Source: an uncultured Algibacter sp.
GTDB lineage: Bacteria; Bacteroidota; Bacteroidia; Flavobacteriales; Flavobacteriaceae
Length of the DNA: 64,000 nt
Direction: 5' to 3'
NCBI RefSeq assembly: GCF_947490405.1
Contig: NZ_CANLGU010000003.1
Coordinates: forward strand, 310,001-374,000
How positions within the stretch are numbered: the first letter of the stretch is position 1; every line of letters starts with the position of its first letter. Both the position numbers and the translations under genes were made by a program. Positions 283 through 54,339 of this stretch are shown here, in pieces. The notes beneath the pieces are model-generated. The model was not told where the DNA came from. It saw only the letters and a program-made list of their open reading frames with translations, and made no database searches.

Positions 283-388
283 GTTGGCAGATAGGTGCGA
301 GAGCGATAGTAGTGGTTAGCTTTTGGCGAGGCGTGCATCGAGCCAAAACTAGTAACGGATAGCGCGGTTTTTATTTCAAAAACTCGCC
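283..388 (+). repeat. Dispersed structured repeat, copy A
   Basis: Copy A of a six-member intergenic family, in forward orientation. It shares long stretches with copy D, including TTTTGGCGAGGC and ATCGAGCCAAAACTAGTAA. Its outer ends differ from the family consensus but still pair: GCGAG at 297-301 with CTCGC at 383-387, replacing GCGTTA/TAACGC. The 3' hairpin is GTTTTT/AAAAAC (367-383) instead of the G/C-rich hairpin of other copies. A GTTGGCAG box at 283 is shared with copies C, E (reverse) and, loosely, F. It lies beyond the fabI terminator, between fabI and the glycosyltransferase gene. Confidence 0.85.
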
Positions 389-390
389 AT

Positions 391-420
391 AAAAAAAGCC
401 ACCCTTTTAAAGGCGGCTTT
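391..420 (-). terminator. Rho-independent terminator of fabI
   Basis: On the minus strand AAAGCCGCC pairs with GGTGGCTTT and a run of T follows. One pair is a G-U wobble in the minus transcript but would be an A-C mismatch in a plus transcript, which supports the minus direction and assigns it to fabI. Confidence 0.85.
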
Positions 421-440
421 GTATTATTGAGTATGCTTTT

Positions 441-1259
441 TTATTCTTCTCCTACAAAGGTAGACATTACGGCATCACTTACGCCCATGTTGCTAAATCC
501 ACCATCATTATAAAGGTTTTGCAAAGTAACACGTTTGGTTAAATCGCTAAATAACGACACTGTGTAGTTTGCACAATCCATGGCTGTAGCATTACCAAGT
601 GGCGACATTTTTTCTGCGTAAGAAATAAATCCATCAAACCCTTTTACACCACTTCCAGCTGTTGTTGGTGTTGGCGATTGTGAAATGGTGTTTACTCTTA
701 CTTTTTTGTCTCTTCCGAAGAAATACCCGAAACTACGTGCAATACTTTCTAAATAGGCTTTATTGTCTGCCATATCATTATAATCTGGAAAAACACGTTG
801 TGCTGCCATATAAGTTAATGCTACAATACTTCCCCATTCGTTCATGGCATCTGCCTTGTATAATGTTTGCATTACTTTATGAAAAGACATGGCTGAAACA
901 TCTGTTCCCTTTTGCGTCCAAGCGTAATTTTGATCTGTATAGTGTTTACCCTTTCTAACATTAATTGACATACCAATGGAGTGTAGTACAAAATCAATTT
1001 TACCTCCTAAAATCTCCATAGATTGCTCAACTAAATTTTGCAAATCCTCTTCGGAAGTGGCATCTGCAGGAATAATTTGAGAACCTGTTTTTTCTGCTAA
1101 CTCATTAATTTGCCCCATTCGCATTGCAACTGGTGCATTAGTTAACACAAATTGACCGCCTTCTTCATGAACACGCTCTGCAGTTTTCCAAGCAATTGAA
1201 TTTGAATCTAATGCTCCAAAAATGATTCCTTTTTTTCCTTTTAGTAAATTATATGACAT
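441..1259 (-). CDS. fabI: Enoyl-[acyl-carrier-protein] reductase, NADH-dependent
   Basis: Catalyses the last reduction of the type II fatty-acid elongation cycle in the cytoplasm (trans-2-enoyl-ACP to acyl-ACP with NADH). The 272-residue protein has the divergent SDR nucleotide loop of FabI (GALDSNSIAW, residues 15-24), HSIGMS after beta-strand 4, and the FabI-type catalytic spacing Y160-x6-K167 in YNDMADNK. Length is normal for the family. It is a single-gene unit with its own terminator at 391-420 and a 102-bp gap to recN upstream. The start gives the usual N-terminus MSYNLLKGKKGIIFG. Confidence 0.95.
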   Translation of the reverse strand: MSYNLLKGKKGIIFGALDSNSIAWKTAERVHEEGGQFVLTNAPVAMRMGQINELAEKTGSQIIPADATSEEDLQNLVEQSMEILGGKIDFVLHSIGMSINVRKGKHYTDQNYAWTQKGTDVSAMSFHKVMQTLYKADAMNEWGSIVALTYMAAQRVFPDYNDMADNKAYLESIARSFGYFFGRDKKVRVNTISQSPTPTTAGSGVKGFDGFISYAEKMSPLGNATAMDCANYTVSLFSDLTKRVTLQNLYNDGGFSNMGVSDAVMSTFVGEE

Positions 1260-1361
1260 ATTAGTAAACTATTTTAATTCTTATTTGTTAATTAGTGTGC
1301 TAAGATAATATTAAAATTATGATTTTCTATAATAGATTCTTGCTACTAAAGGCACATCAAG

Positions 1362-3014
1362 CTAGTTGAGCAACTCTTTGGCATGAGCTATTGCCGATGT
1401 AGTTAATTCTGAACCACCAAGCATTTGAGCTATCTCTACAATACGATCGTCATGATTTAATTTAATAAGATTAGTTTGCGTTACCTCACCTACATCTTCT
1501 TTATAAACTTTAAAATGCGAATGGCCTTTGGCAGCAATTTGTGGTAAATGCGTAATTGAAAATACTTGCATGTTCTTACTCATTTGCAGCATAATATCAC
1601 CCATTTTATTTGAAATCTCACCAGAAACTCCTGTATCAATCTCATCAAACATTATTGTTGGAAGCTGAATGTATTTTGATAGTATAGACTTTATAGCTAA
1701 CATGATTCTGGAAAGTTCTCCTCCTGAGGCGGCTTTTTTTAGCGCGTTAAAGCTACCTCCTTTATTTGCTGAAAATAAAAAAGACAGCTCGTCTTTTCCA
1801 TTGCTATAATAAGTATCACTGTTAAATACTTCAATTTTAAACTGTGCATTTGGCATCCCTAACTCTGCTAAAATAGTTTCTAATTGTGACTTTAAAAGCG
1901 GAATAACCTCTAAGCGATTTTTATGAATGGATTTTGAAATTGCATTAAGTTCTTTCTCTTTTGAAGAAATTTCAGTTTGCTTTTTCTTAATTGTATCATC
2001 AAGGTTTTCTGTAACCGACACTTTTTCTTTTAATTGATTTTTTATTCCAATTAACTCCGAAACATCTGAAGCTACATGCTTTTGCATCAAATTATGAATG
2101 ATTTTTAACTTTCCATCAACTACCGCAAGCCTGTTTGGGTCTGCGTCTAAGCCATCCTGTAACTCGTGAATTTCACTGTACAAATCATCCATTTCAATTA
2201 AGCAACTATTTGCTCTATTGAACAGTTCTTCATATTTTGAGGACAAACCTGATAGTTTCTGGAATACAGTCTTCAACGTAGTTAGTGATGTTAAAATACC
2301 AACTTGCTCTTCTCCTAAAAGCTGATAAGCTTCAGCTAGGTTTTCTTGAATACCCTCTATATTATTTAAGGTTTCATATTCTTCTTCTAAAGTTTCTACT
2401 TCGCCTTCAATTAGGTTAGCTTCAGTTAATTCATTTAACAAAAACGTGTTGTAATCATGCTCTTTTATGGCTTCAGCCTGAAAAGATAAAAGCGTATCAT
2501 ATTCTTTTTGGAGGTTTTTATAAACTTGTAACTCTTGTTTATACTTTTCAAGAACTACATCATGATTTGCCAAAGCATCAATTACTTGAAATTGAAAATC
2601 GTTACTTGTAAGTTGAAGGGTTTGATGCTGTGAATGAATATCTATTAAACGTTCTCCTAATAATTGTAGACTGGATAAATTTACTGGTGTATCATTAACA
2701 AACGCTCTAGATTTACCTGATGGTAATATTTCTCTTCTAATAATAGTTTGTGGTTCGTAATCTAAATCTTCAGAATTAAAAAGTTCCTTTAAATTGTAAT
2801 TAGAGATATTAAAAACAGCTTCAATGATACACTTTTTTGATGGCTCTTTTAAACTACTTAAATCTGCACGTTTACCTAAAATTAATGATAAACCACCTAA
2901 AAGTATTGATTTCCCTGCACCAGTTTCGCCAGTAATTATTGAGAATCCATCATTAAAATCTACATGAAGATTATCAATTAATGCATAGTTTTTTATAGAA
3001 AGGGACGTGAGCAT
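1362..3014 (-). CDS. recN: DNA repair protein RecN
   Basis: SMC-like ATPase that acts at double-strand breaks. The N-terminus holds a Walker A motif GETGAGKS (29-36). A long coiled-coil-rich middle (about 160-380) is followed by the ABC signature region GGELSRIMLAIK and Walker B with the D-loop, FDEIDTGVSGE. At 550 residues it matches RecN length. It heads a conserved flavobacterial order (recN, DUF4835, coaBC, rpoZ, bamD, dapA, all minus) as the downstream member, 55 bp after the DUF4835 gene. Confidence 0.95.
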   Translation of the reverse strand: MLTSLSIKNYALIDNLHVDFNDGFSIITGETGAGKSILLGGLSLILGKRADLSSLKEPSKKCIIEAVFNISNYNLKELFNSEDLDYEPQTIIRREILPSGKSRAFVNDTPVNLSSLQLLGERLIDIHSQHQTLQLTSNDFQFQVIDALANHDVVLEKYKQELQVYKNLQKEYDTLLSFQAEAIKEHDYNTFLLNELTEANLIEGEVETLEEEYETLNNIEGIQENLAEAYQLLGEEQVGILTSLTTLKTVFQKLSGLSSKYEELFNRANSCLIEMDDLYSEIHELQDGLDADPNRLAVVDGKLKIIHNLMQKHVASDVSELIGIKNQLKEKVSVTENLDDTIKKKQTEISSKEKELNAISKSIHKNRLEVIPLLKSQLETILAELGMPNAQFKIEVFNSDTYYSNGKDELSFLFSANKGGSFNALKKAASGGELSRIMLAIKSILSKYIQLPTIMFDEIDTGVSGEISNKMGDIMLQMSKNMQVFSITHLPQIAAKGHSHFKVYKEDVGEVTQTNLIKLNHDDRIVEIAQMLGGSELTTSAIAHAKELLN

Positions 3015-3069
3015 ATTGTATTATAAGTTAACAATTAGAATGAACCAATTTAAACTTTTTTAGTAAAAA

Positions 3070-3960
3070 TCAATATTTAATATTTTGCCATTTACTACTG
3101 TGCATTGGTGCAATACGCTGTAAGGTTTCTTTTAATTTCACGATGTTTACGTTAGGACCATCTGTAAAAATTTGCTCAACTTCTTCCGCTTTAGCATCAA
3201 AAAACGTACGTAACAGAAAAGAATTTGGTCTACGAGCATTCATAGCTTGAAATTTCTCTAAAGCTTTAGCAACAGCCTCTTTACCAGCTTTAACATCATC
3301 ACTCATAACATCCAATCCGTTTCTGTGATAGTCATATATAACATTCCGAAATTCTTTAAAGGTTGGAGATAACACATTATCGATTAACGTAAAACGACTT
3401 TGCAACCCATCTTCCAATTTCCATCCTTTAAAATTTCCTTGCTGCGAGTAATTGGTAATTATCTGAGCTTGTTTATAATAATCATCACCTCCTTTTTCTT
3501 CAAATGAATCCGCGTCTAAAGCCAAAATCATATTTATATGAAATGCTAAAACTGAAATTAAATTAGATTCAAATTGAGATGGATTATATATTAAATTTTG
3601 AAATTCTAAATATCTGAAGTTAAAATCTTTATCATTAAAGTTGTAAAGTGGTGTACTGAAAGAAGATCCATATATTGGTCTTGACGATTGCACTTGTAAT
3701 GTGGCTTGAAAGGTTTCGCCACTGTATTGGGTAACATTAATAAACATATTGCAACTAATACGTTCTTGATCTTTAAATGTTTTTTTAGTCCACTTAGTGT
3801 TATTAACAAACTCATTGAGTTGCTTTTCTAAAGTTTTAAAAATTGGAAAATTCTCGTTACCTGTTTGTTCTGCATTTACAACAACATTACAATTTAATTC
3901 TTGTGAAAACCCGGTTAAACTCAGGAAAACTATTAATATAACTAGAATATTACGCATCAA
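3070..3960 (-). CDS. DUF4835 family secreted protein
   Basis: A 296-residue protein with a signal peptide (hydrophobic residues 4-17, then FSQE as the likely cleavage area), so it is probably periplasmic or outer-membrane associated. No catalytic motif is recognised. I assign the DUF4835 family from its sequence style and its fixed place between coaBC and recN in flavobacteria. Its start overlaps the end of coaBC by 11 bp, so the two are translationally coupled. A second in-frame ATG one codon later is equally good. Function is unknown. Confidence 0.75.
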   Translation of the reverse strand: MMRNILVILIVFLSLTGFSQELNCNVVVNAEQTGNENFPIFKTLEKQLNEFVNNTKWTKKTFKDQERISCNMFINVTQYSGETFQATLQVQSSRPIYGSSFSTPLYNFNDKDFNFRYLEFQNLIYNPSQFESNLISVLAFHINMILALDADSFEEKGGDDYYKQAQIITNYSQQGNFKGWKLEDGLQSRFTLIDNVLSPTFKEFRNVIYDYHRNGLDVMSDDVKAGKEAVAKALEKFQAMNARRPNSFLLRTFFDAKAEEVEQIFTDGPNVNIVKLKETLQRIAPMHSSKWQNIKY

Positions 3961-5164
3961 TTTCTGATATAATTTTATTTAATAAATCTGAAGCAACTTC
4001 AGTTTTTGATTTTAACTGAAACGCTGTAACATTACCTTTGTCATCAAGAAATGTTACTTTGTTTGTATCTGTTTTAAAACCAGCTCCTTTATCATTTAAC
4101 GAATTTAATACAATTAAATTTAAATGCTTTTTTGTTAATTTCCCTTTAGCATTCTCTAATTCGTTATTGGTCTCTAGGGCAAATCCCACTAAATATTGCT
4201 GCTTTTTAATGTCTCCTAAAGATGCCAATATATCTTTAGTTTTTTCCAACTCTAAAACTAACGTATTAGAAGTCTTTTTTATTTTCTGTGTTGCTACTTC
4301 TTTTAGAGTAAAATCTGCTACAGCAGCTGAAAGAATAGCAATATCTGTTGTTTTGAAATGCTTATGTACCTCATCGTACATGTTCTGAGCACTCACAACA
4401 GGCTTTACATGTATTAAACTATGCGACACCTTTTGATATGTTGGTCCTGTAACCAAAATAACTTCAGCTCCTTTATTTGCAGCAGCCTTAGCTATTTCAA
4501 ACCCCATTTTACCGCTGGAATGATTTCCTATAAATCTTACAGGATCAATAGCCTCATAAGTTGGGCCGGCAGTAATTAAGACTTTTTTTCCACGCAGTGG
4601 AAGCTTATCTAAAATATCACTCTCTATAAACGTAACAATATCCTCAGGCTCAGCCATTCTTCCCTGACCTACTAACCCACTGGCTAATTCGCCACTGGTA
4701 GCTGGAATCATAATATTTCCAAAATTTTTAAGTTTTTCAAAAGATTGGAGTGTCGATGGATGTTTATACATATCCAAATCCATAGCTGGTGCAAAATAAA
4801 CAGGGCATTTTGCAGATAAATATGTTGCTAGCAATAAATTATCACTCGTACCATTGGACATTTTCGACAAGGTATTCGCTGTTGCTGGTGCAACAACAAA
4901 TAAATCTGCCCAAAGCCCTAAGTCTACATGATTATTCCAAACAGCGTTATCATCTTCTTCATTTGTGAAAGATGAATGTACAGGATGCTTTGATAAAGTT
5001 GATAAGGTTAATGGAGTTATAAAATCTTTAGCAGCAGGAGTCATCACCACCTTTACCTCTGCCCCTGATTTTATAAATAACCGCACTAAAGATGCTGTTT
5101 TATAAGCAGCAATGCCAGCAGTAATGCCAAGTAATATTTTCTTTCCGCCTAGTATACTCATCAA
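3950..5164 (-). CDS. coaBC: Bifunctional phosphopantothenoylcysteine decarboxylase / phosphopantothenate-cysteine ligase
   Basis: Makes 4'-phosphopantetheine for coenzyme A in two steps. The N-terminal CoaC flavoprotein domain (about 1-185) keeps the catalytic histidine H79 in HVDLGLWAD. The usual PxMNxxMW motif reads PAMDLDMY (D129 for Asn), and the usual ACG motif reads ELASGLVGQGRM (S162 for Cys). The C-terminal CoaB domain has AGPTYEAIDPVRFI, NHSSGKMG and AAVADF. At 404 residues, both domains are complete. The two CoaC substitutions look lineage-typical to me rather than damage, but they change residues shown to be important in the E. coli enzyme. Initiation may be at either of two adjacent ATG codons. 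Confidence 0.93.
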   Translation of the reverse strand: MMSILGGKKILLGITAGIAAYKTASLVRLFIKSGAEVKVVMTPAAKDFITPLTLSTLSKHPVHSSFTNEEDDNAVWNNHVDLGLWADLFVVAPATANTLSKMSNGTSDNLLLATYLSAKCPVYFAPAMDLDMYKHPSTLQSFEKLKNFGNIMIPATSGELASGLVGQGRMAEPEDIVTFIESDILDKLPLRGKKVLITAGPTYEAIDPVRFIGNHSSGKMGFEIAKAAANKGAEVILVTGPTYQKVSHSLIHVKPVVSAQNMYDEVHKHFKTTDIAILSAAVADFTLKEVATQKIKKTSNTLVLELEKTKDILASLGDIKKQQYLVGFALETNNELENAKGKLTKKHLNLIVLNSLNDKGAGFKTDTNKVTFLDDKGNVTAFQLKSKTEVASDLLNKIISEIDA

Positions 5165-5189
5165 TAAAGTGTGGTTTTAATAACCAAAC

Positions 5190-5227
5190 AAACTCCAACG
5201 CCATTTATTAAAACGGTATTGGAGTTT
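5190..5227 (-). other. Stem-loop between rpoZ and coaBC
   Basis: AAACTCCAA at 5190-5198 pairs with TTGGAGTTT at 5219-5227, a 9-bp perfect stem with a partly pairable loop. It follows the rpoZ stop codon by 25 bp on the minus strand. The following T-run is interrupted (GTTTGTTTGG), so it may be a weak terminator, an attenuator or a processing site within the operon. Confidence 0.55.
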
Positions 5228-5252
5228 ATTTAATGGTGCTTAAATTTAGAAA

Positions 5253-5582
5253 TTATTCTTGAGAATCTTCCTCAGTATTTCTAAAATAAATTTTATCTGT
5301 CAACCATTCTTGAACAGCTAATGCATGAGGCTTAGGCAGTTTCTCATAAAACTTAGAAACCTCAATTTGCTCTTTGTTTTCAAAGATTTCCTCAAGACTA
5401 TCATTGTAAGTAGCAAACTCCTCTAACTTATCAATAAGTTCTTTTTTAATCTCTGTGTTAATTTGTTCAGCGCGTCTGGATATGATAGAAATTGACTCGT
5501 AGATATTCTCTGTTGGCTCATCTATTTGATTTCTATCATACGTTACCGTATTAACTGGAGCATTAGTTTTTTTTAAATCCAT
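5253..5582 (-). CDS. rpoZ: RNA polymerase omega-type subunit (Bacteroidota Rpb6-like)
   Basis: A 109-residue protein containing ENIYESISIISRRAEQIN, the omega/Rpb6 core helix that clamps the beta' C-terminus. This is followed by an acidic helical tail specific to Bacteroidota. It lies 11 bp downstream of bamD and upstream of coaBC, the position where flavobacteria keep their omega subunit. It should aid assembly and stability of RNA polymerase. The divergence from proteobacterial omega makes the family call less certain than the neighbourhood does. Confidence 0.82.
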   Translation of the reverse strand: MDLKKTNAPVNTVTYDRNQIDEPTENIYESISIISRRAEQINTEIKKELIDKLEEFATYNDSLEEIFENKEQIEVSKFYEKLPKPHALAVQEWLTDKIYFRNTEEDSQE

Positions 5583-5593
5583 CCTTTTATAAT

Positions 5594-6433
5594 TTAACTT
5601 TTGGTGCTGTAATTGTTTAATTCCTTGCTTATTTCTGATGCCATTTCCTTAACATCCTCTATATATTTTGATTCAGCATAAGCTTCAATAAAAGCTTGTG
5701 AGTACTCTTTTGCTGTTTCTAAACGTTGCTTTTTTAGGTAAATAATTCCTTTTTGTATGGTATTTTTAACTTCTACGCTATTTATTGCTAACTTGTATGC
5801 TGAATCCAACCTATAAAACAAAGCATCTTCACGAAGTCTTGATCCTGGGAACTCAAATATAAAATTATCAAAAGATCTTACAGAGGCAGGGTAATCTGAT
5901 ATATGATTAAATTGTTTTGCTATTTCATAAGCCTTTTTCTCGAGTTTAAAATCTAATTCTTGTATTAGTGTATTAGCATCAGAAACATATTCGGAATCAG
6001 GAAATAGGTTTATGAATTCTTGCAACTTCTCAATAGCTTCTTTCGTTTCTGTTTGGTCTTTACTAAAAATAGGAGATAATTGATAATAACTCCTTGCTCC
6101 AAAAAATGAAGTTTCTTCTAATTTTTCGCTCTTAGGATAACTTGATGCAAAACGCTCAAATTGATAGCCTGCCACATAAAAGTCTTTCATTTTATAAAAT
6201 GTATTAGAGTATAAATACATTAACTTTTCTGCCTGTGGCTTCCCTCTATAGTTTGGTACTATTTGAGCAAAAAGTCTATTCGCTTTTTCAAATTTGCCTT
6301 GGTTATATAATTCTTCCCCCATTTTAAATTTTTTAGCAACAGCATCTTCACCATCAGCCTTTAGAACTTTCTGGTATTCGCTACAGCCACTTAAAATGAC
6401 TAATGAAAATATGATGTAGAGAAATTTATTCAT
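5594..6433 (-). CDS. bamD: Outer membrane protein assembly factor BamD (lipoprotein)
   Basis: Lipoprotein of the BAM complex that inserts beta-barrel proteins in the outer membrane. The chosen start MNKFLYIIFSLVILSGC gives a lipobox LSGC with the lipidated Cys at residue 17. TPR-like helical repeats follow (EELYNQGKFEKANRLFAQ, NTFYKMKDFYVAGYQFERF, EKLQEFINLFPDSEYV). An in-frame ATG at 6451 would add six residues. However, a -7-like box TAATTTTG ends only 2 nt before that ATG, so the transcript should start inside or after it, which favours 6433. It is followed directly by rpoZ. Confidence 0.92.
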   Translation of the reverse strand: MNKFLYIIFSLVILSGCSEYQKVLKADGEDAVAKKFKMGEELYNQGKFEKANRLFAQIVPNYRGKPQAEKLMYLYSNTFYKMKDFYVAGYQFERFASSYPKSEKLEETSFFGARSYYQLSPIFSKDQTETKEAIEKLQEFINLFPDSEYVSDANTLIQELDFKLEKKAYEIAKQFNHISDYPASVRSFDNFIFEFPGSRLREDALFYRLDSAYKLAINSVEVKNTIQKGIIYLKKQRLETAKEYSQAFIEAYAESKYIEDVKEMASEISKELNNYSTKS

Positions 6434-6452
6434 AGATTTTAAATACAGCATG

Positions 6453-6460
6453 CAAAATTA
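6453..6460 (-). promoter_or_regulatory. -7 box upstream of bamD (decides the start)
   Basis: TAATTTTG fits the Bacteroidota -7 consensus TAnnTTTG. The -33 position 19 bp upstream reads TTT rather than TTG, so the match is partial. The predicted transcript begins near 6447, downstream of the first ATG at 6451. Confidence 0.5.
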
Positions 6461-7430: not shown

Positions 7431-7432
7431 TA

Positions 7433-24365: not shown

Positions 24366-24491
24366 GCGTTAGGGATTGTAATGGAAATCCTTTTTTGAGA
24401 CTATCGAAACCAAAATATTTTTTGGTTGAAGATACCGAAGCGAAGCTTTAAAAAAGATTGTATTGGAAAGCCCGACCCTTGTGGTAACGCC
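24366..24491 (+). repeat. Dispersed structured repeat, copy B
   Basis: Forward orientation. It begins GCGTTAGGGATTGTAA and ends GGAAAGCCCGACCC...GGTAACGCC, so the ends pair as GCGTTA/TAACGC. At 126 nt it is the longest copy. The central arm is enlarged, with AATC..TTTTTT pairing AAAAAAGATT and an inner AACCAAA/TTTGGTT hairpin. It fills most of the 339-bp gap between divergent dapF and degQ; the rest of the gap holds only the two promoters. Confidence 0.88.
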
Positions 24492-26137: not shown

Positions 26138-27586
26138 ATGAGTTCTAACAAAACTTATGAAAAAGAATTAGCATTTCAAGCAGACCGAAGAAAAGCTACC
26201 GTTGAATTTATTAAAACAGTCAGTGATTTGTGGTATGACAAGTCTATTGAGTTAGTTTTATTCCGTAATCAACTTATTGATAGAAATGTAAGTCAAATTT
26301 TAAATCTGCATGAATATGCAGGTCAATTTGTACAAAAACCCATTTCAATTTTTGATTCCGTAGAAATTGCTCAGGCTATTAAAAGTTTAAACGTGCCTCC
26401 TGCAAAATTAGATATTGGCAAATTAACTTACGAGTATCATTTAGATGATAACAAACATAACAACGCCAAAGCATTTGTAGCTTCAAAACTTAAAGATGCT
26501 AGTAAAAACGGAAATATAGAGCCTAAGGATGTTGTGCTTTATGGTTTTGGTAGAATTGGACGATTAGTGGCTAGAGAGCTTATGGTAAGAACGGGAAAAG
26601 GTAGCCAACTACGATTAAGAGCTATAGTAACTCGAGGAGCAATCGATGCTCAAATACTAGAAAAAAGAGCATCGTTACTACGTAATGATTCTGTACATGG
26701 CGATTTCCCAGGTACAGTTTCTATTGACGAAGCCAATAATGCTTTAATAATTAACGGTACAACCGTAAAAATTATCTCTGCAAACTCACCAGAAGAGATA
26801 GATTATACAAAATTCAACATCAATAACGCTTTGGTTATTGATAATACAGGTGCTTTCAGAGATAAAGCAGCACTTAGTAAACACCTAAAATCTAAAGGCG
26901 TAGATAAAGTATTACTAACTGCACCAGGAAAAGGGGTTCCAAACATTGTTTACGGTGTTAATCATAAAGAAAATGATCCGGATAAAGTGAATATTTTTTC
27001 GGCAGCATCTTGTACAACTAATGCTATTAGTCCTGTTTTAAAGGCCGTAGAAGATTCTTTTGGAGTTAAAAGTGGCCATTTAGAAACCATTCATGCTTAT
27101 ACTAACGACCAAAATTTGGTTGATAATTTTCATAAAAAATACCGTCGCGGAAGAGCTGCAGGTTTAAACATGGTAATTACAGAAACTGGTGCAGGAAGTG
27201 CCGTGGCAAAGGCATTACCAAGTTTAGAAGGTAAATTAACATCAAACGCTATTAGAGTACCAGTCCCTAATGGTTCGTTGGCTATCCTTAACTTAGAATT
27301 AGAAAACAAAACATCACTTAATGGCGTAAATACCATTTTAAAGAAATATGCTTTAGAAGGTGATTTAGTTGAACAAATAAAGTACGAATTAAGTGATGAG
27401 CTTGTTTCTAGCGATATTGTGGGTAGTTCAGCACCATCTATTTATGATAGTAAAGCCACTATAGTTAGAAAAGACGGTAAAAATGTATTGCTATATATTT
27501 GGTATGATAACGAGTATGGCTATAGCCATCAAGTTATACGTTTAGCAAAATACATCGCTAAAGTTAGACGCTACACATACTATTAA
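26138..27586 (+). CDS. gap: Glyceraldehyde-3-phosphate dehydrogenase with long N-terminal extension
   Basis: The catalytic core from about residue 130 has GFGRIGRL (136-143), SCTTN with the nucleophile C292, and the C-terminal WYDNEYGYSHQ. It oxidises or reduces the C3 phosphate in glycolysis or gluconeogenesis. Standard GAPDH is about 335 residues. This one has 482, with about 130 extra N-terminal residues forming a helical domain (AFQADRRKATVEFIKTVSDL) with no motif I recognise. Transcribed alone. A repeat copy lies in its 3' region, before the terminator at 27810. Confidence 0.92.
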   Translation: MSSNKTYEKELAFQADRRKATVEFIKTVSDLWYDKSIELVLFRNQLIDRNVSQILNLHEYAGQFVQKPISIFDSVEIAQAIKSLNVPPAKLDIGKLTYEYHLDDNKHNNAKAFVASKLKDASKNGNIEPKDVVLYGFGRIGRLVARELMVRTGKGSQLRLRAIVTRGAIDAQILEKRASLLRNDSVHGDFPGTVSIDEANNALIINGTTVKIISANSPEEIDYTKFNINNALVIDNTGAFRDKAALSKHLKSKGVDKVLLTAPGKGVPNIVYGVNHKENDPDKVNIFSAASCTTNAISPVLKAVEDSFGVKSGHLETIHAYTNDQNLVDNFHKKYRRGRAAGLNMVITETGAGSAVAKALPSLEGKLTSNAIRVPVPNGSLAILNLELENKTSLNGVNTILKKYALEGDLVEQIKYELSDELVSSDIVGSSAPSIYDSKATIVRKDGKNVLLYIWYDNEYGYSHQVIRLAKYIAKVRRYTYY

Positions 27587-27608: not shown

Positions 27609-27716
27609 AGGGCGTTACCCCGCTTATTGCGGGGTCGGGCTTTACGTTACAAGTCCTCGCTCGTACCTCGCTGTGGGCTTTCCTCTTCAATCCCTAACGC
27701 GGGTATAACTGCCAAC
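27609..27716 (-). repeat. Dispersed structured repeat, copy C
   Basis: Reverse orientation: read on the minus strand it runs GTTGGCAG, a short linker, GCGTTAGGGATTGAAGAGG..., then ...CCCGACCCCGCAATAAGCGGGG and TAACGCCC. Outer stem GCGTTA/TAACGC; 3' hairpin CCCCGC/GCGGGG, the strongest of the family. It lies within the 323-bp gap after GAPDH and upstream of the only terminator there, so GAPDH read-through RNA would contain its complement. Confidence 0.9.
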
Positions 27717-38153: not shown

Positions 38154-38251
38154 GGCGTTACCCAGAAGGGTCGGGCTTTCCATTACTAGTTTTGGCTCGA
38201 TGCATGCCTCGCCAAAAGCTATCCTTTACAATCCCTAACGCATTTACCAAC
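38154..38251 (-). repeat. Dispersed structured repeat, copy D
   Basis: Reverse orientation, 98 nt, between convergent genes. Read on the minus strand it begins GTTGGTAAATGCGTTAGGGA and ends ACCCTTCTGGGTAACGCC. Outer stem GCGTTA/TAACGC, central hairpin TTTTGGC/GCCAAAA, 3' hairpin CCC/GGG. The central arm is almost identical to copy A, which is on the opposite strand 38 kb away. Confidence 0.9.
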
Positions 38252-47999: not shown

Positions 48000-48005
48000 G
48001 CTTAT

Positions 48006-48662
48006 TTAGTAGCGTTTTCTTTGGCGGTTATTAGAATTTTTCTTGTGGTGCTTCTTATTATTATTGTTATTGTTGTTGGAGTATTTCCCCTTAGTTCGAA
48101 GCAAACTAGAAGACTCAGATAAATCTTCATCAGAGTTTTTCAAATTTATTTTCCCTCCAGAAAGTTCAAATAAATGATCAAAAATCACATCATCCTCAAC
48201 GGTATCTTTATTCCAATTTAAAAAACACTTTTTCATGTGGTTTGCTATGGTATAAAGCAGAGCTTCTTTTAATTCTCCTTCTTCCCAAGTATTAGCTACA
48301 TCAATCATAGTTTTAATATTGTTTCCGTAAAAACGATATTTTGGATGATTCTGCGGGTATTTTAAAGGTTCTGGACGCTCTTCAAACAGTTCTTTTGTAG
48401 GCTTTTCATAAGGAGAATCTACATCCAACTCAAAATTAGCCATTATAAAAAGTTGATCCCAAAGTTTATGCTGAAAATCTGGAACATCTCTTAAATGTGG
48501 TTGCATATTTCCCATCACAGAAATTATAGCCTTAGCCACCTTATTACGTTCCTCTTTAGTTTCTATAGTTTTAGCATGATTAATCATTTTTTGCAAATGA
48601 CGCCCATATTCGGGAATAATTAAATGTTCACGCTCTGTGTTATATTCTAAGTTATCTATCAA
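48006..48662 (-). CDS. DUF4290 family protein
   Basis: 218 residues, soluble and helical, with LEYNTEREHLIIPEYGRHLQ at the start and YRFYGNNIKTMIDVANTWEE in the centre. The C-terminal 35 residues are a low-complexity tail of Asn, Lys, His and Arg (coded partly by a run of AAT/AAC-type triplets), probably disordered and nucleic-acid-attracting. Its constant partner is murA. Function unknown. Confidence 0.78.
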   Translation of the reverse strand: MIDNLEYNTEREHLIIPEYGRHLQKMINHAKTIETKEERNKVAKAIISVMGNMQPHLRDVPDFQHKLWDQLFIMANFELDVDSPYEKPTKELFEERPEPLKYPQNHPKYRFYGNNIKTMIDVANTWEEGELKEALLYTIANHMKKCFLNWNKDTVEDDVIFDHLFELSGGKINLKNSDEDLSESSSLLRTKGKYSNNNNNNNKKHHKKNSNNRQRKRY

Positions 48663-48727
48663 AATAAATGTGTAGAGTTAAATGTTTTACACGTAGTTCT
48701 TGTGCCTGCGCAAAATACAAAAAAAAA

Positions 48728-49021
48728 CTAAAGACTAATTACGCCTTCTACTTTTTCTGCCACTTCTTTGTATTTTTCAATTACTGCATCTGGGTTTTTC
48801 ATTCTCACGTTTATAGAAACGCTTGTATACTTACCGTTTTTCGATTCTTTTGTCTCAATTACAGCACCTAAATGATTAAAAATAGAAGCAATATCCTTAA
48901 TCTTCATCTTATCAGAAATCACAATAAATTTGTACAAATACTCGGTAGGCCATAGTGCCGTATCTTGCAATTGCGTTTTTAATTTCTTGTAAAACTCTTC
49001 AGAATTTGGAGGTGTGCTCAT
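48728..49021 (-). CDS. DUF493 family protein
   Basis: 97 residues from MSTPPNSEEFYKKLK. A ferredoxin-like ACT-type fold with YKFIVISDK and YTSVSINVRM, as in E. coli YbeD. An upstream in-frame ATG at 49063 is excluded because a TATATTTG -7 box (49040-49047) lies between the two, placing transcription start after it. Role unknown, possibly regulatory ligand binding. Confidence 0.78.
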   Translation of the reverse strand: MSTPPNSEEFYKKLKTQLQDTALWPTEYLYKFIVISDKMKIKDIASIFNHLGAVIETKESKNGKYTSVSINVRMKNPDAVIEKYKEVAEKVEGVISL

Positions 49022-49039
49022 AAATGTAAAAATAAAGTG

Positions 49040-49047
49040 CAAATATA
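49040..49047 (-). promoter_or_regulatory. -7 box of the DUF493 gene (decides the start)
   Basis: TATATTTG on the minus strand, 18 nt before the ATG at 49021. No clear TTG at -33. Confidence 0.45.
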
Positions 49048-49090
49048 CGGCTCCAAAATACATTTTAAAATATTAAGTAATTAATTATTT

Positions 49091-49190
49091 GGGCGCTACC
49101 CCAAAAAAGGGGTCTGGCTTTACGCTATATCTTTTTCTCGTGCCTCAAAAAAGGATGCCGCTTCAATCCTTAGCGCACAAACCTGCCAAC
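49091..49190 (-). repeat. Dispersed structured repeat, copy E
   Basis: Reverse orientation, 100 nt, between divergent genes. On the minus strand: GTTGGCAGGTTTGT, GCGCTAAGGATTGAAGCGG, then a central arm ATCCTTTTTT...GAAAAAGAT, and AGACCCCTTTTTTGGGGTAGCGCCC. Both outer ends carry a T-to-C/A-to-G pair change relative to the family (GCGCTA/TAGCGC). 3' hairpin CCCC/GGGG. Confidence 0.9.
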
Positions 49191-49286
49191 AAAAACATAA
49201 CCAAAAGTCACTACATATTTGCATTAGTTTCTACTCCACTTTTTTTTCAACATATAAATACCGATTTTTACAGCAAATATTTAAGG

Positions 49287-49826
49287 TTGAGCACAAAAAA
49301 AATAGTCATCACTGGAGGACCAGGTACTGGAAAATCTACACTAATCAATAACCTGATAGAAAAAGGACACATTTGTCTTGAAGAAATTTCACGTCAAGTC
49401 ACCCTCGATGCCCAAAAACAAGGTATAGACCAATTGTTTTTAACCAACCCATTACTATTTAGCGAACTCCTATTAAAAGGCAGACAAAAACAATATATCG
49501 ATGCAAACATCTATAAAAACCAAACCGTTTTTTTCGATAGAGGTATTCCAGATGTATTAGCATACATGGATTATATTGGAGATGCTTATCCAAAAAACTT
49601 TGTACAAGCCTGTAAAAATTCAACATACAACAGTGTATTTATTTTAAAACCCTGGGAAGCCATCTATAAAAGTGATAACGAACGTTACGAAAATTTTGAG
49701 CAAGCTTTAAAAATACACGACCATTTAGTAAACACTTACCAAAACTACAATTATGAGTTAATTGATGTGCCTTTTGACACGGTAGAAAACCGAACAAACT
49801 TTATTCTCAAAACACTAAACATGTAG
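49287..49826 (+). CDS. AAA family ATPase / nucleoside-kinase-like (TTG start)
   Basis: 179 residues from the TTG at 49287 (MSTKKIVITGGPGTGKST), preceded by TAAGG. A longer frame from 49089 would translate repeat copy E and an unrelated stretch, so it is rejected. P-loop GGPGTGKST at 9-17, FFDRGIPDVLAYMDY as the second conserved block. Resembles the AAA_28/Ttd14-like group. Substrate unknown. One bp before recQ, thus cotranscribed. Confidence 0.78.
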   Translation: MSTKKIVITGGPGTGKSTLINNLIEKGHICLEEISRQVTLDAQKQGIDQLFLTNPLLFSELLLKGRQKQYIDANIYKNQTVFFDRGIPDVLAYMDYIGDAYPKNFVQACKNSTYNSVFILKPWEAIYKSDNERYENFEQALKIHDHLVNTYQNYNYELIDVPFDTVENRTNFILKTLNM

Positions 49827-49827
49827 T

Positions 49828-51732
49828 ATGGCACACCCCATTAACATATTAGAGCGTTATTGGAAGTTTACTAGTTTTAGGCCAGAGCAAGAAGCCATAA
49901 TCAATTCAGTGATTGAGGGCGAAGATACTTTTGTTCTGCTCCCAACAGGTGGCGGAAAATCATTATGTTTTCAAATCCCAGCATTAGCTAAAAAAGGCAT
50001 TTGTATTGTGGTATCGCCGCTTATTGCACTCATGAAAGATCAAGTGCAAACCTTAAACAACAAAGGCATCAAAGCCATGACCATTACAAGTGGTATCAGT
50101 TATAAGCAATTAGACACGTTATTAGACAATTGTATATATGGCAACTATAAATTTCTCTACCTCTCGCCAGAACGTTTACAACAAGAACTCGTTCAAGATA
50201 GGATTAGACAAATGCATGTTAACCTCATTGCAGTAGACGAAGCACATTGTATCTCACAATGGGGAAGCGATTTTAGGCCAGCATACAAAAACATAACCAT
50301 ATTAAGGCAACTACAGCCTAGTGTAAATGTGGTAGCCTTAACAGCTTCTGCAAAACCAGATGTAGTACAAGACATTGTAAAAGAACTCGATTTTATAAAC
50401 CCAAAAATCTTTAAGCAATCGTTTTTAAGACCCAATTTGGCATACATGGTGTTTCATGAAAACGATAAACATCATCGTCTTGAAATCATCTTAAAAAAGA
50501 ATCCCGAATCGTCTATTATATATGTTAGAAACAGAAAACTAACCTTAGAGCTTAGTGCGTTTTTAAACTCAAAAAACATTACAGCAACCCACTATCATGG
50601 TGGACTCTCAAATATTGAGAAAGACACCAACATGTTGGGGTGGTTAAACAACCAAAAACAAGTTATGGTCGCTACTAATGCCTTTGGTATGGGTATTGAT
50701 AAGCCAGATGTAAAAACAGTTATACATTTAAACTTACCAGAAAGTATAGAAAGTTACTTTCAAGAAGCTGGTAGAGTTGGACGAAATGGAGAAAAAGCCT
50801 TTGCCTTAATTTTAAAAAACGATAGTGATAAAGCGTTAGTTAAAAATCAATTTTTAAGTGTTTTACCAGATGTAGATTTGGTAAAACAGGTGTATAGAAA
50901 ACTCTGTAGCTATTTTCAAATTTCTTATGGAGAGGGTGAATACCAAACCTTCGATTTTGATTTCAACACTTTTTGTAAAACCTATAATTTTAGCTCAATT
51001 TTATGCTATAATGCCATTTTGTTACTAGACAGAAATAGCATTATAAGCTTATCCAAACAGTTTAAAAACAAGGTTACTGTCCAATTTACAACATCAAATA
51101 ATGTACTTTTTAGATATCTAGAAACACATGATAATATAAGTATTATAGTAAAATCCATTTTGCGCTTGTATGGAGGTATTTTTGATCATGTTACCAAAAT
51201 AGATTTATCTAAAATATCCGAAAAAGCTTCGGTTACAGAACACACTATAATTCAAACACTTAAAAAACTAGAAAGCGATAAAATTATTGATTTAAGCTTA
51301 GCAAAAACCGATGCACAAATTACGTTTTTAGAACCGCGAGAAGATGATAAAACCATCAACAGAATTGCCTCTATAATAAACCAACAAAACAAACTAAAGC
51401 AACGCCAAGTTAAGGCAATGCTTGATTATATTGAGGATGATTCGGTTTGTAAAAGTATGCAACTCCTCGCCTATTTTGGAGAAAAAAAATTAGAACCTTG
51501 TGGTGTGTGTTCTGTTTGCATAAACACAAAAAGGAAAAAGAAGCCACAAGATTTAAAAAGTGTAAAAAAAGACATCATTCAATTACTAGAAAAAGGAGAA
51601 CAATCTTCCAGAGCCATAGTAGCCCATTTAGATTGTGAAGACAAGGATATAAAAACGGTTTTAAAGCTCTTATTAGAGCACCAAATTATTAGCATTACAC
51701 CATCAAACACCTATAAATTAAGTCATTTATAA
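49828..51732 (+). CDS. recQ: RecQ family ATP-dependent DNA helicase
   Basis: 634 residues: helicase motif I LLPTGGGKS, motif II DEAHCISQWGSDFRP, motif III ALTAS, motif VI EAGRVGRNG. The C-terminus has the RQC zinc-binding part with CGVCSVC and a short winged-helix tail. The HRDC domain is absent. A 3'-5' helicase in recombination and repair. Bacteroidota often encode more than one RecQ, and this shorter form may be the second type. Confidence 0.9.
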   Translation: MAHPINILERYWKFTSFRPEQEAIINSVIEGEDTFVLLPTGGGKSLCFQIPALAKKGICIVVSPLIALMKDQVQTLNNKGIKAMTITSGISYKQLDTLLDNCIYGNYKFLYLSPERLQQELVQDRIRQMHVNLIAVDEAHCISQWGSDFRPAYKNITILRQLQPSVNVVALTASAKPDVVQDIVKELDFINPKIFKQSFLRPNLAYMVFHENDKHHRLEIILKKNPESSIIYVRNRKLTLELSAFLNSKNITATHYHGGLSNIEKDTNMLGWLNNQKQVMVATNAFGMGIDKPDVKTVIHLNLPESIESYFQEAGRVGRNGEKAFALILKNDSDKALVKNQFLSVLPDVDLVKQVYRKLCSYFQISYGEGEYQTFDFDFNTFCKTYNFSSILCYNAILLLDRNSIISLSKQFKNKVTVQFTTSNNVLFRYLETHDNISIIVKSILRLYGGIFDHVTKIDLSKISEKASVTEHTIIQTLKKLESDKIIDLSLAKTDAQITFLEPREDDKTINRIASIINQQNKLKQRQVKAMLDYIEDDSVCKSMQLLAYFGEKKLEPCGVCSVCINTKRKKKPQDLKSVKKDIIQLLEKGEQSSRAIVAHLDCEDKDIKTVLKLLLEHQIISITPSNTYKLSHL

Positions 51733-51745
51733 AATATAACATGAC

Positions 51746-51775
51746 TTGACTTTGTAAAAAATTCAGCTACCTTCG
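51746..51775 (+). promoter_or_regulatory. Promoter of the Crp/Fnr-type gene
   Basis: TTG (51746-51748), exactly 19 bp, TACCTTCG (51768-51775), one mismatch in the -7. It implies a leader of about 100 nt. Confidence 0.6.
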
Positions 51776-51783
51776 TTTAACAT

Positions 51784-51838
51784 CGGATATAAAACACCTG
51801 TGCTGAACTTGTTTCAGTATTAAAACGACGCATATCCG
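51784..51838 (+). other. Structured 5' leader of the Crp/Fnr-type gene
   Basis: CGGATAT (51784-51790) pairs with ATATCCG (51832-51838), closing a 41-nt loop with an inner CTGAA/TTCAG hairpin. It lies between the promoter and the ATG at 51885. No known riboswitch is recognised. Confidence 0.45.
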
Positions 51839-51884
51839 TAAAAACACTGTGTATAAGTGCTGAAAAAAACCTGAAAAACCAAAA

Positions 51885-52451
51885 ATGAATAGATTAATAA
51901 CAAAATTAAACTCTGTCTTACCTATTTCATTAGAAGAACAAAATTTAATAGAAAATAATATTAATTTAGAAACTATTAATAAAGGTGAAATTTATTCTGA
52001 ACGCGGGAAAATTTGCCAAAAATTGGGTTTCGTATTAGATGGTGTGTTTAAAGTTGTTAGAACAAACTCTAATGACGATGAATTTATACAATATTTTACT
52101 ACAGAAGGACATTTTGCTGTAGATATAGACAGTTTTACTAATAAAACACCATCAAAAGAATACATTAAGGCTTTAACAAGGTGTTCAGTCCTAACAATAA
52201 CAGACAACTCTTTCAAATTATTTGAAGATAAAATTGTTAATTTTTCTAAAATAATAAGTTTAATTAAAGAACAAGCATTACTTGAAAAATATAACTTAAA
52301 AAGTGAAATGTTTGTAGATGACGCACTAACAAAATATAATAAATTATTACAACGACACCCATCAATAATTCAACGTATTCCTCAAAATCAAATTGCGTCT
52401 TTTTTAGGGATCACTCAATATACTCTTAGTCGAATAAGAGCAAAAAAGTAA
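51885..52451 (+). CDS. Crp/Fnr-type transcriptional regulator
   Basis: 188 residues. The N-terminal cyclic-nucleotide-binding-like jelly roll (GEIYSERGKICQKLGFVLDGVFKV, EFIQYFTTEGHF) lacks an obvious phosphate-binding cassette. The C-terminal helix-turn-helix is IPQNQIASFLGITQYTLSRIRA. Common Bacteroidota type of one-component regulator with unknown ligand. It is followed at 71 bp by an SDR and a methyltransferase gene and probably controls them. Confidence 0.82.
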   Translation: MNRLITKLNSVLPISLEEQNLIENNINLETINKGEIYSERGKICQKLGFVLDGVFKVVRTNSNDDEFIQYFTTEGHFAVDIDSFTNKTPSKEYIKALTRCSVLTITDNSFKLFEDKIVNFSKIISLIKEQALLEKYNLKSEMFVDDALTKYNKLLQRHPSIIQRIPQNQIASFLGITQYTLSRIRAKK

Positions 52452-52522
52452 TTTTTTGTCATAGAGCAAACTTTTTGTTTTTTTATTACTCTAGTTTTAT
52501 TCTAAATTAATAAAATTAGATA

Positions 52523-53263
52523 ATGACCAAATTAAAAAATAAAACAGCAATAGTTACAGGTGCTTCAAAAGGTATTGGAGCTGAAATAGCAAAAGCAATA
52601 GCAAGAGAAGGAGCAAAAGTTATCGTTAATTATTTTTCAGACCATAACGGAGCTGAATCTGTTGTGAAAACGATTAAAAAAAACGGAGGTACTGCAATAG
52701 CTATAAAAGCTAACATCACAAAATCAGAAGATGTAAAAAATCTATTTGAGCAATCCAATAAAGCATTTGGAAATCTTGATATACTAATAAATAATGCTGG
52801 GGTATATAATTTTGAACCCATAGAGGTTGTTACCGAAAAAGAATTTTACCATCAATTTAGCAACAATGTTTTAAGTACAATAATTTGTATTCAAGAGGCA
52901 TTAAAAATTTTCAATAAAAATGGTGCCAGCATTATAAATATTAGCTCTATTGCAAGTGTTAAACCTACACCTATGTCCGTAGTTTATTCTGCTAGTAAAA
53001 GTGCTGTAGATTCTATTACTCAAACATTATCAAAAGAATTAGGTGCAAAAAACATTCGCGTAAATTCAATTTTGCCTGGTCCAACTCAAACAGAAGGAAA
53101 TCAAATTGCAGGAACAGAGATAGAAAATTTTGTAGTCGCAAACACTTCATTGGGGAGAATTGGACAGCCTAAGGACATCTCTGAATTAGCTGTCTTTTTA
53201 GCTTCCGATGATTCTTCTTGGATTACAGGGCAAAAAATAGGTGTTTCAGGAGGTTTTGAATAA
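52523..53263 (+). CDS. Short-chain dehydrogenase/reductase (FabG-like)
   Basis: 246 residues: TGASKGIG (12-19), NNAG, catalytic Tyr/Lys in YSASKSAV, and the glycine-rich end ITGQKIGVSGGF. Prefers NADP(H) by general family rules, but the substrate is unknown. Not in a fatty-acid cluster, so a role in a small-molecule reduction under Crp/Fnr-type control is more likely than in lipid synthesis. Confidence 0.87.
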   Translation: MTKLKNKTAIVTGASKGIGAEIAKAIAREGAKVIVNYFSDHNGAESVVKTIKKNGGTAIAIKANITKSEDVKNLFEQSNKAFGNLDILINNAGVYNFEPIEVVTEKEFYHQFSNNVLSTIICIQEALKIFNKNGASIINISSIASVKPTPMSVVYSASKSAVDSITQTLSKELGAKNIRVNSILPGPTQTEGNQIAGTEIENFVVANTSLGRIGQPKDISELAVFLASDDSSWITGQKIGVSGGFE

Positions 53264-53274
53264 AAAAATAAACA

Positions 53275-53982
53275 ATGATAAAATCAACAGTAAAAGAAAT
53301 AAAAGAACGTTTTGATAATGATGTCGAAAGATTTTCAAATCTAGATACTGGTCAAGTAGCTACAATTGATGCAAAAATATCTCTTGAACTTTTAACCGAA
53401 GCTTCTAAAAGAATTGTACCTAATGCTAAAAACTTATTAGATATAGGTTGTGGAGCAGGGAATTATAGTTTGAAAATGTTAACTAAAATAGCTAACTTAA
53501 ACTGTACTTTAGTTGATTTGAGCAAACCTATGTTAGATAAAGCAAAGGAAAGAGTCTCTGCCAAAACCAACAATAAAGTAGAAACTATCCAAGGAGACAT
53601 TCGTGAAGTAGAGTTAAAAGAAAAAAGTTTTGACATTATATTAGCTGGAGCAGTATTGCACCATCTACGAGATGACAACGACTGGGAAACTACTTTTAAT
53701 AAACTATATAATTTACTTAAACCAGGGGGATGTTTAATGATTTCAGACTTAATAACTCAAGAAACTAATACTGTTAATGAATATACTTGGGAACGCTATG
53801 GCGATTATCTAGAAAGTATAGACGGAAAGGAATACAGAGATAAAGTTCTAGATTATGTAGAGAAAGAAGATTCACCTAGGTCAATGACTTATCAGCTAGA
53901 ATTAATGAGAAAAGTAGGTTTCAAAAAGACTGAAATTTTACACAAAAATATGTGCTTTGGTGCGTTTGGAGGTATTAAATAA
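53275..53982 (+). CDS. Class I SAM-dependent methyltransferase
   Basis: 235 residues: motif I LLDIGCGAGNYS, the acidic residue of motif II in CTLVDLSKPML, and ILAGAVLHHLRDDND as post-motif II. Small-molecule type without a substrate domain I recognise. 11 bp after the SDR gene, so the two are cotranscribed. Confidence 0.85.
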   Translation: MIKSTVKEIKERFDNDVERFSNLDTGQVATIDAKISLELLTEASKRIVPNAKNLLDIGCGAGNYSLKMLTKIANLNCTLVDLSKPMLDKAKERVSAKTNNKVETIQGDIREVELKEKSFDIILAGAVLHHLRDDNDWETTFNKLYNLLKPGGCLMISDLITQETNTVNEYTWERYGDYLESIDGKEYRDKVLDYVEKEDSPRSMTYQLELMRKVGFKKTEILHKNMCFGAFGGIK

Positions 53983-54014
53983 AAACCTACACACAACAAT
54001 GTATAAAAAACATA

Positions 54015-54052
54015 GGGCATTTGGTACTTAATCGAATGTCCTTTTATTTTTT
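54015..54052 (+). terminator. Terminator of the Crp/Fnr-SDR-methyltransferase unit
   Basis: GGGCATTTG pairs with CGAATGTCC (two G-U wobbles), followed by TTTTATTTTTT. Confidence 0.75.
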
Positions 54053-54058
54053 AAAGTC

Positions 54059-54118
54059 GCCAAATATAAAATATAGCATTTTCAACAAAAAAGATAAAAG
54101 CAAAATATTATATTTGGC
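54059..54118. repeat. Perfect 11-bp inverted repeat with 38-nt loop
   Basis: GCCAAATATAA (54059-54069) and TTATATTTGGC (54108-54118). It lies in the 379-bp gap before fmt, between the terminator and repeat copy F. It could be a remnant of a small mobile element or a transcription-independent structure. The rest of the gap (54119-54225) shows nothing recognisable. Confidence 0.5.
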
Positions 54119-54225
54119 TAAGTAATAAACCCAAACGATAGTGCTTTTCACCTGCCCTACGTTTCTTATACTGAACGCTAAACGAAACTCTCCAAAAATT
54201 AAAAAAATCCAAATAAAAAACAGAA

Positions 54226-54339
54226 GTTTGCAGATATGCCCGCGTTAGGGATAGTAGAGGAAAGCCCACAGCTTTTTCGCCTTAGCGCAAAAGCGAGGAC
54301 TTGTAACGGATAGCCCGCCCCCTTTTCGGGGTAACGCCC
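54226..54339 (+). repeat. Dispersed structured repeat, copy F
   Basis: Forward orientation, 114 nt, ending 22 bp before fmt. GTTTGCAGATATGCCC, then GCGTTAGGGATAGTAGAGG, a central arm GCTTTT(T)CGC/GCG(C)AAAAGC, and CCCGCCCCCTTTTCGGGG with TAACGCCC. Outer stem GCGTTA/TAACGC, 3' hairpin C4-5/G4. It occupies the likely fmt leader. Confidence 0.9.

Follow-up and report, generated by a model that had tools for sequence, protein, structure and literature searches.

The 64,000-nt stretch of an uncultured Algibacter sp. analyzed here (contig NZ_CANLGU010000003.1, positions 310,001 to 374,000; hereafter the window) contained six copies of a folded intergenic repeat, three on each strand, and each copy was matched by the covariance model of the Rfam family RF01705 (Flavo-1). 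The forward-strand copies were located at 297..388, with the stem variant GCGAG/CTCGC and the 3' hairpin GTTTTT/AAAAAC (placed at 283-388 in an earlier note on this DNA; Rfam match 278-373), at 24366..24491, with the outer stem GCGTTA/TAACGC and a central arm of type B that carried a long nested hairpin, and at 54242..54339, with an arm of type D and the inner pair variant GATAG/GATAGC. The reverse-strand copies were located at 27610..27700 (arm type D, 3' hairpin CCCCGC/GCGGGG), 38154..38241 (arm type C, with a three-way junction as its predicted DNA fold) and 49091..49176 (outer stem GCGCTA/TAGCGC, arm type A). The copies at 24.4 kb (48.9 bits), 49.1 kb (43.6) and 0.3 kb (42.9) scored above the RF01705 cut-off of 42 bits, and those at 38.2 kb (39.1 bits), 27.6 kb (34.4) and 54.2 kb (29.6) scored under it, with E values from 8e-05 to 0.033. 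Directly 5' of the 27.6 kb unit lay a loosely conserved leader, TTRGCRRAT plus 3-5 nt (27701..27716, reverse strand); this pattern, drawn by eye, preceded many copies and was mostly not common to the closely matching ones.

None of the window copies lay within a credible gene among the listed open reading frames (ORFs) of at least 80 aa, those running off the window ends being excluded. The sole ORF overlapping a copy, 49089-49826, had a doubtful TTG start and matched AAA_28 only from residue 71. When up to 2 mismatches were allowed, the left end GCGTTAGGGATTG was found at 8 places in the window where 0.72 were expected, none of 100 shuffles reaching 8, and five of these matches were copies. 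For the right end GGAAAGCCCGACCC, up to 3 mismatches were allowed and 5 matches were found where 0.77 were expected (none of 100 shuffles reached 5), all of them copies; the copy at 283 was too divergent to match the left end and was not among the right-end matches. The earlier note had described six intergenic copies, three per strand, together with the outer-stem variants GCGTTA/TAACGC, GCGCTA/TAGCGC and GCGAG/CTCGC and the 3'-hairpin variants, and all of these proved real. Its suspicion of a relation to Flavo-1 was borne out by the Rfam search it had proposed, in which RF01705 named all six copies.

The copies were anchored at GCGTTAGGGATTG and AAAGCCCGACCC, and pairing was not used for this, save for the GC of one 3' anchor. 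The outer stem P1, GCGTTA with TAACGC, closed a three-way junction with P2 and P3. P2 consisted, in order, of GGG/CCC, a fixed A.G mismatch (64 of 64 copies), TT/AA and a 3x3 internal loop, whose GNA was present on the left side in 64 and on the right side in 62 of the 64 copies, followed by two pairs, a second loop and the variable arm. Four main arm types were distinguished by eye: A (CATCC..GATATAG), B (AAATCC..GATTGTA), C (TAGCTTTTGGC..GCCAAAAC) and D (AAAGCCCACAGC..GCGAGGACTTGTA). P3 was a 3' hairpin of varied sequence, most commonly CCC-TTGT-GG, with no clear form in L012 and L028. The RF01705 model covers 76 positions with unpaired 8-nt tails, and both P1 and P3 fall outside it, so that they provide a fuller anatomy than the Rfam model and are new here. 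The earlier note had allowed that an Rfam hit might show the repeat to be fully described already; the family is indeed in Rfam, whereas the outer stem and the 3' hairpin are not in its model. Five copies (L001-L005) had older-type ends, TTTAGCCCCGAT..GCGGGAAATAGCT, and were left out of the pair counts. The loops of the long copies L034, L035, L036 and L039 contained other dispersed-looking repeats, e.g. GATTGCCACGTCG..CTCCTCGCAATGACG, and a minimal copy in Breznakibacter (L189) lacked the whole central arm, as if by deletion between two inner direct repeats.

The pairing of these stems was preserved through many changes of letters. In the 64 own-genome copies, 13 pairs gave 832 cells, of which 801 were Watson-Crick, 6 G-T, 1 A-C and 24 other; these 24 fell mostly at the last P1 pair and the second P2c pair, and many changes were two-sided. 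The P1.4 pair was TA in 56 copies, CG in 5 and GC, AT and TG in one each, and the inner pair P2b.2 was TA in 46 and AT in 18, with no other pair. Since the copies are related, such cells are not independent events. Among 175 distinct elements from all sources, 1854 of 1925 pairs were Watson-Crick, against 1672 expected with independent sides; the excess stemmed from this genome (62 elements, 677 of 682 against 596) and from the genus elements (587 of 616 against 502), and was small or nil for the plasmid copies (120 of 121 against 118) and for 43 elements fetched by the exact right-end pattern (444 of 473 against 443). Two-sided changes were also observed at single sites: the 0.3 kb stem is GCGAG/CTCGC here and GCAAG/CTTGC in the congener G002, and among the locus 2 orthologues GCGTTA/TAACGC changed to GCGCTA/TAGCGC. 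Among those of locus 7, GCGTTA/TAACGC changed to GCATTA/GAATGC, with the last pair lost. The orthologue cell counts (642 same, 36 changed on both sides, 39 with one G-T, 78 broken in one and 4 in both) were not used as evidence because in some rows the right anchor was misplaced (those of locus 2 that read CACAGGGAGG). The z-scores of the six window copies were 0.76, -2.55, -2.18, -0.18, -0.76 and -0.08 for RNA folding and -0.84, -3.18, -2.34, -1.64, -0.56 and -2.02 for DNA folding; the case for the fold rests on covariation, not on energy. Selection on a fold, as the earlier note had proposed from the six copies, was thus upheld by paired changes in the 64 of 69 copies that were anchored, the five of the other subtype being left out.

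The whole genome (3.69 Mb, 23 contigs) contained at least 67 RF01705 matches at E<=0.001, 44 of them over the cut-off, which is a lower bound because just 150 of 854 candidates were scored. The 69 own-genome copies read in this work were these 67 matches together with two copies of the window, those at 27.6 and 38.2 kb. All 10 genomes of the genus sample, this one included, had 31-77 matches, and no RF01705 match was found in 14 named control genomes. Besides the copies for which stretches had been picked, 20 further elements were present in 400 kb, a rate that would correspond to ~185 per genome.

Closely matching copies, found in two lineages (this genome and a Bacteroidales metagenome-assembled genome, MAG), mostly shared the sequence from GCGTTA to about CGCCCAAA. 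The best pair, 97% identical, lay on contig C5 at 193.9 and 197.1 kb, inverted and 3 kb apart, and the 24.4 kb copy shared 96% identity with one located elsewhere, on contig C1. Among the pairs listed for this genome, 33 of 40 began within 2 nt of GCGTTA. In the Bacteroidales MAG (18 copies, 49 pairs, whole-unit identity up to 95%), 24 of the 40 pairs listed did so, and the remaining ones had a 5' extension of 13-63 nt or matched elsewhere. The same unit was therefore present at different sites, which is the general criterion for a mobile repeat. The 27.6 kb copy was present here, decayed in the congener G009 (88.5% identity) and absent in all 7 other congeners with the site recovered, G006 being the one where it was not; most simply, the lineage leading to this genome and G009 would have acquired this copy. 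No target-site duplication was visible at this one dated gain, where the flanks were too diverged for a base-precise empty site, and the upstream TTRGC motif was not visible as a pre-existing target at the empty 27.6 kb sites.

Several other forms of mobility were considered and rejected. A composite element at the inverted C5 pair was discarded since the genes between the two copies, which we take to encode a DEAD-box helicase-like and a surface-type protein, appear not to be transposase. A large element suggested by long identical Algibacter flanks was also discarded, as these flanks were rRNA operons; in Algibacter miyuki (L188, L193 and L201), a copy lay ~660 bp 5' of the 16S rRNA in repeated rRNA operons, and the identity between operons ended at the Flavo-1 3' end. 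An integron attC-like site was set aside because the core bases appear not to fit. Lagging-strand insertion was rejected as well, the apparent GC-skew bias having proved local and not significant at the 20-kb scale. The local skew itself extended over the first 1.5 kb to either side of the 69 own-genome copies, where the element strand was richer in G than in C (mean skew ~+0.05, up to +0.09 within 500 nt); it persisted after correction for gene direction and faded beyond 1.5 kb.

Comparison of orthologous sites showed that the scaffold and the arms of the element changed in different ways. Across species at one site, whole arms differed and P1 and the P2 base stayed. The 24.4 kb site carried an arm of type B here and of type D in eight congeners, and in the seven genomes that bear a copy at locus 3, the site of the 49.1 kb copy, arms alternated between types D and A, all seven keeping the minority stem GCGCTA/TAGCGC. 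The arm type differed in 22 of 67 typed orthologous pairs. From these comparisons we infer that hairpin modules have probably been exchanged between copies. In addition, the small palindromes TCCCGATAGCTATCGGGA and CCTGCCTACCGGCAGGCAGG had entered Flavo-1 arms at the 38 kb site of G009, in L109 and at site C of G003, the join in one case being at a shared GGGA.

The element was not confined to chromosomes of the genus. With a type D query, matches were found on 80 of 72,556 plasmid records (Bacteroides 58, Phocaeicola 11, Parabacteroides 9, Butyricimonas 1 and Moraxella 1), 48 of the 80 being typed conjugative. A second Moraxella plasmid, pMOV1, was found by other queries, and the two Moraxella plasmids carried 4 and 2 copies, whose arm was of another kind. 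The copies on three plasmid loci scored only 28.8-32.8 bits with RF01705. Two Bacteroides plasmids (L226 and L225), 99.86% identical over 14.9 kb, diverged within 1 nt of the 5' end of the unit; since the segment 5' of the unit differs between plasmids that are otherwise nearly identical, a junction between exchanged modules lies at the element. This segment contained a LuxR-type gene in one plasmid and winged-helix genes in the other. No match was found in E. coli genomes, nor in phage records with the 27.6 kb copy as query; the type D query gave one weak match in phage records (E 5e-3), and a left-end pattern was matched exactly three times in viral contigs.

The exact right end was found in 46 stretches of one-per-species genomes, which by their titles were 30 Bacteroidales, 11 Flavobacteriia, 2 Chitinophagales and 3 Spirochaetes; one MAG accounted for 20 of the 46 stretches. 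RF01705 itself, with stricter filters, was found in 22 of 148 Bacteroidota genomes. The 16-mer left end GCGTTAGGGATTGNAG had a patchy distribution: it was present in 7 of these 148 genomes (the reversed-pattern control matched once, in a single genome) and in 7 of 149 genomes of the phylum of a Spirochaetales MAG (control: 0); exact left ends numbered 55 in this genome and 189 in that MAG. Two of the spirochaetal genomes are MAGs, and misbinning of single cases is possible. In the Spirochaetales MAG, 34 of 40 candidates were aligned, with 2 chance matches, 2 copies of another arm type and 2 with shortened arms excluded. These copies shared the P2 base, the GNA loop and the T-A/A-T swap (the swap in 2 of 34 copies), and were followed by two long hairpins whose letters differed between copies and whose pairing was kept. 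The covariation score reached 0.532, compared with 0.135 in shuffles, none of 500 being as high; both sides had changed in 185 cells and one side in 3, and the G-U cells, 12 of 782, were confined to the helix with the poorest alignment. Four spirochaetal loci (62 kb) searched with Rfam gave a tRNA and no match to RF01705 up to E 0.05.

From these results, we read the six repeats as copies of a non-autonomous mobile Flavo-1 element resembling repetitive extragenic palindromic (REP) sequences and miniature inverted-repeat transposable elements (MITEs), recognized probably as folded DNA and not as a transcript; we give this reading a probability of roughly 0.55. The recognized form would be folded DNA, either a single strand or a cruciform, and a protein acting on the folded scaffold would copy the unit. 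Hairpin arms would then be exchanged between copies by short-tract recombination or template switching, and may be exchangeable because the scaffold constrains pairing, not letters. At the consensus pairs of the own-genome copies, G-U occupied 6 of 832 cells (0.7%) against 19 of 228 (8.3%) in the acceptor and T stems of 19 tRNAs, about tenfold rarer (Fisher p 5.6e-9, for cells that are not independent). The orientation of the 69 copies relative to neighboring genes was random: 17 were tandem sense, 19 tandem antisense, 19 convergent and 12 divergent, with one in an ORF and one unclassified. The rarity of G-U together with the random orientation fits folded DNA better than one RNA strand. The spirochaetal alignment, with its preponderance of two-sided over one-sided changes and its few G-U cells, likewise speaks against a single functional RNA strand.

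Several observations weigh against this reading. We found neither a transposase nor a target-site duplication nor a precise excision, and the extra DNA at the 27.6 kb gain included ~75 nt 5' of the unit, so that more was inserted than the unit common to the copies. The two ends occur in every copy, and for this reason similarity may stop elsewhere than at the cut point. Transposition of single strands is often biased to a replication strand, and no replication-strand bias was seen among 46 elements, of which 25 were positive after correction (p 0.15) and 27 without it (p 0.10). The sites, judged from their occupancy in congeners, are old and more stable than an active element would predict. 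The RNA energy z-scores were weak for 4 of the 6 window copies. G-T cells exceeded A-C cells by 18 to 7 in the 175-element count, a mild sign that one strand matters. In whole minimum-energy folds, G-U was without clear depletion, at 5.9% in spirochaetal copies, 8.0% in genus copies, 10.9% in tRNAs and 14.4% in shuffles, and at 6.5% and 11.0% for the reverse strands; only the fixed consensus pairs discriminated well. The DNA form is proposed as probable and no more because the G-T excess, the lack of depletion in whole folds and the weak z-scores count against it.

A structured non-coding RNA transcribed from many loci, which would act in trans or in untranslated regions and whose stems would be kept for RNA function, would account for the strong covariation of the own-genome and spirochaetal copies and for the excess of G-T over A-C. 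It is also how the family has been catalogued: in the text available from Weinberg et al. 2010, Flavo-1 is listed as a bacterial RNA with no function given, scored 'y' as an RNA and 'n' both as cis-regulatory and as a switch (PMC2864571), and its Rfam class is Gene; sRNA. The transcriptome of F. psychrophilum, in the portion available, bears on this in two ways, as several 5' transcribed regions coincide with Flavo-1 matches, whereas the matches lie sense or antisense to transcribed regions and many lie in none (PMC9723704). The random orientation, the depletion of G-U at consensus pairs and the presence of copies on plasmids weigh against a functional transcript, and we consider it unlikely that the stems are kept for an RNA.

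A host-kept DNA site, such as a nucleoid or topoisomerase binding site or a site of recombination, which once spread as a repeat and is now selected at fixed intergenic places, seemed equally improbable to us. It would explain why orthologous sites were so often occupied. Among 92 elements compared in all directions, 6 of 6 sites were occupied at >=92% flank identity, 19 of 21 (2 degenerate) at 86-92% and 122 of 165 (36 absent, 7 degenerate) below 86%; the congener G002, for example, was occupied at the site of the 54.2 kb copy. These pairs were counted from both sides, and the occupancy was inflated because some stretches had been chosen for their Flavo-1 matches. The retention of the minority stem at locus 3 and the two-sided stem changes at loci 2 and 7 and at the 0.3 kb copy also suit a kept site. 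The lineage gain at 27.6 kb and the closely matching copies point instead to continued spread, and the distribution is patchy.

The mobilizer of the element was sought among Y1_Tnp genes and among relatives with the same ends. Y1_Tnp was matched in 18 of 22 Flavo-1-positive genomes and in 88 of 126 other genomes. It was not found in two congeners with 70 and 31 Flavo-1 matches, in G092 and G146 (28 and 27 matches) or in three of four further copy-bearing genomes. Among 13 Y1_Tnp loci of the genus, 2 had a both-ended copy within ~1.5 kb, by our estimate roughly as the copy density would give, and in the Spirochaetales MAG one copy lay ~200 nt downstream of one of two Y1_Tnp genes. Mobilization by a REP-associated tyrosine transposase (RAYT) was rejected, as no link was seen in the genus, the phylum, the four other genomes and the 13 Y1_Tnp flanks searched; Y1 transposases of this type are not required. 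It is thus very improbable that these short folded intergenic repeats, with their tens to hundreds of copies, are REP doublets forming hairpins (REPINs) mobilized by a resident Y1 transposase, the frequency of Y1_Tnp in positive genomes and the one adjacent spirochaetal copy being outweighed by its frequency in other genomes, its absence from copy-rich ones and the density-level proximity.

As for relatives, 161 of 167 left ends were accompanied by a right end at no more than 300 nt. Twelve ends (6 left, 6 right) were unpaired; two of them belonged to the minimal copy L189, one was cut by masked bases, some resemble chance or decayed matches, and 5 of the 12 had another end 0.7-3.1 kb away. 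No autonomous relative with the same ends was recognized in the sequence compared, in which the DNA between the five distant end pairs was not checked for genes. The REP-like mobile repeat that the earlier note had offered as one possibility holds in part, as far as closely matching copies at different sites and one probable gain are concerned, and no transposase could be assigned to it. Apart from the repeats, the window contained a glyceraldehyde-3-phosphate dehydrogenase gene at 26138-27586, with ~130 residues ahead of the first Pfam match.

Beyond the window, it is conceivable, though we hold this more loosely than the reading of the six repeats, that Flavo-1 is the first known branch of a cross-phylum group of folded-DNA mobile elements with a fixed three-way-junction frame and swappable hairpin cassettes, which would travel between phyla on plasmids and would be most diversified in a Spirochaetales branch. 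A frame shared by gut Bacteroides plasmids, Moraxella plasmids and Spirochaetota would make Flavo-1 a wide-ranging repeat. If Flavo-1 is moving folded DNA, its annotations as a small RNA (sRNA) will have to be revised, and covariation by itself would turn out to be no proof of an RNA; the combination of G-U depletion and random orientation is a simple test that can be applied to other orphan 'RNA' motifs. A 2022 review, in the part available, places Flavo-1 among the most abundant sRNA families (PMC9029176). In the accessible portions of the Creative Commons-licensed PubMed Central literature, we found no account of Flavo-1 as mobile, of its copied unit, of its plasmid or spirochaetal relatives or of its function. 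Flavo-1 is a known family, and its anatomy, spread and behavior as described here are new relative to the literature searched.

Compared with known systems, the repeat has the same core arm as the Flavo-1 RNA of Rfam (RF01705), with CCG/CGG or GGG/CCC, UU/AA and GNA loops. It differs in that P1 and P3 of this subfamily lie beyond the 76 positions of Rfam, in the low scores of the plasmid copies, and in the spirochaetal loci, which have no match although they share the frame and the pair swap. REP and REPIN sequences are similarly short folded intergenic DNA repeats of high copy number and mixed orientation. They differ from Flavo-1, which forms a three-way junction of ~80-160 nt instead of a short palindrome and showed no tie to Y1_Tnp. 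REPIN/RAYT systems are reported to have a conserved tetranucleotide GTAG/CGTC beside the hairpin. We also compared Flavo-1 with MITEs. It appears to depart from them in that no autonomous relative was recognized, with 161 of 167 left ends paired within 300 nt, and in that no target-site duplication was seen. MITEs are small, non-coding and dispersed elements with paired ends, and Flavo-1 resembles them in being small, non-coding and dispersed, with its ends paired as GCGTTA/TAACGC.

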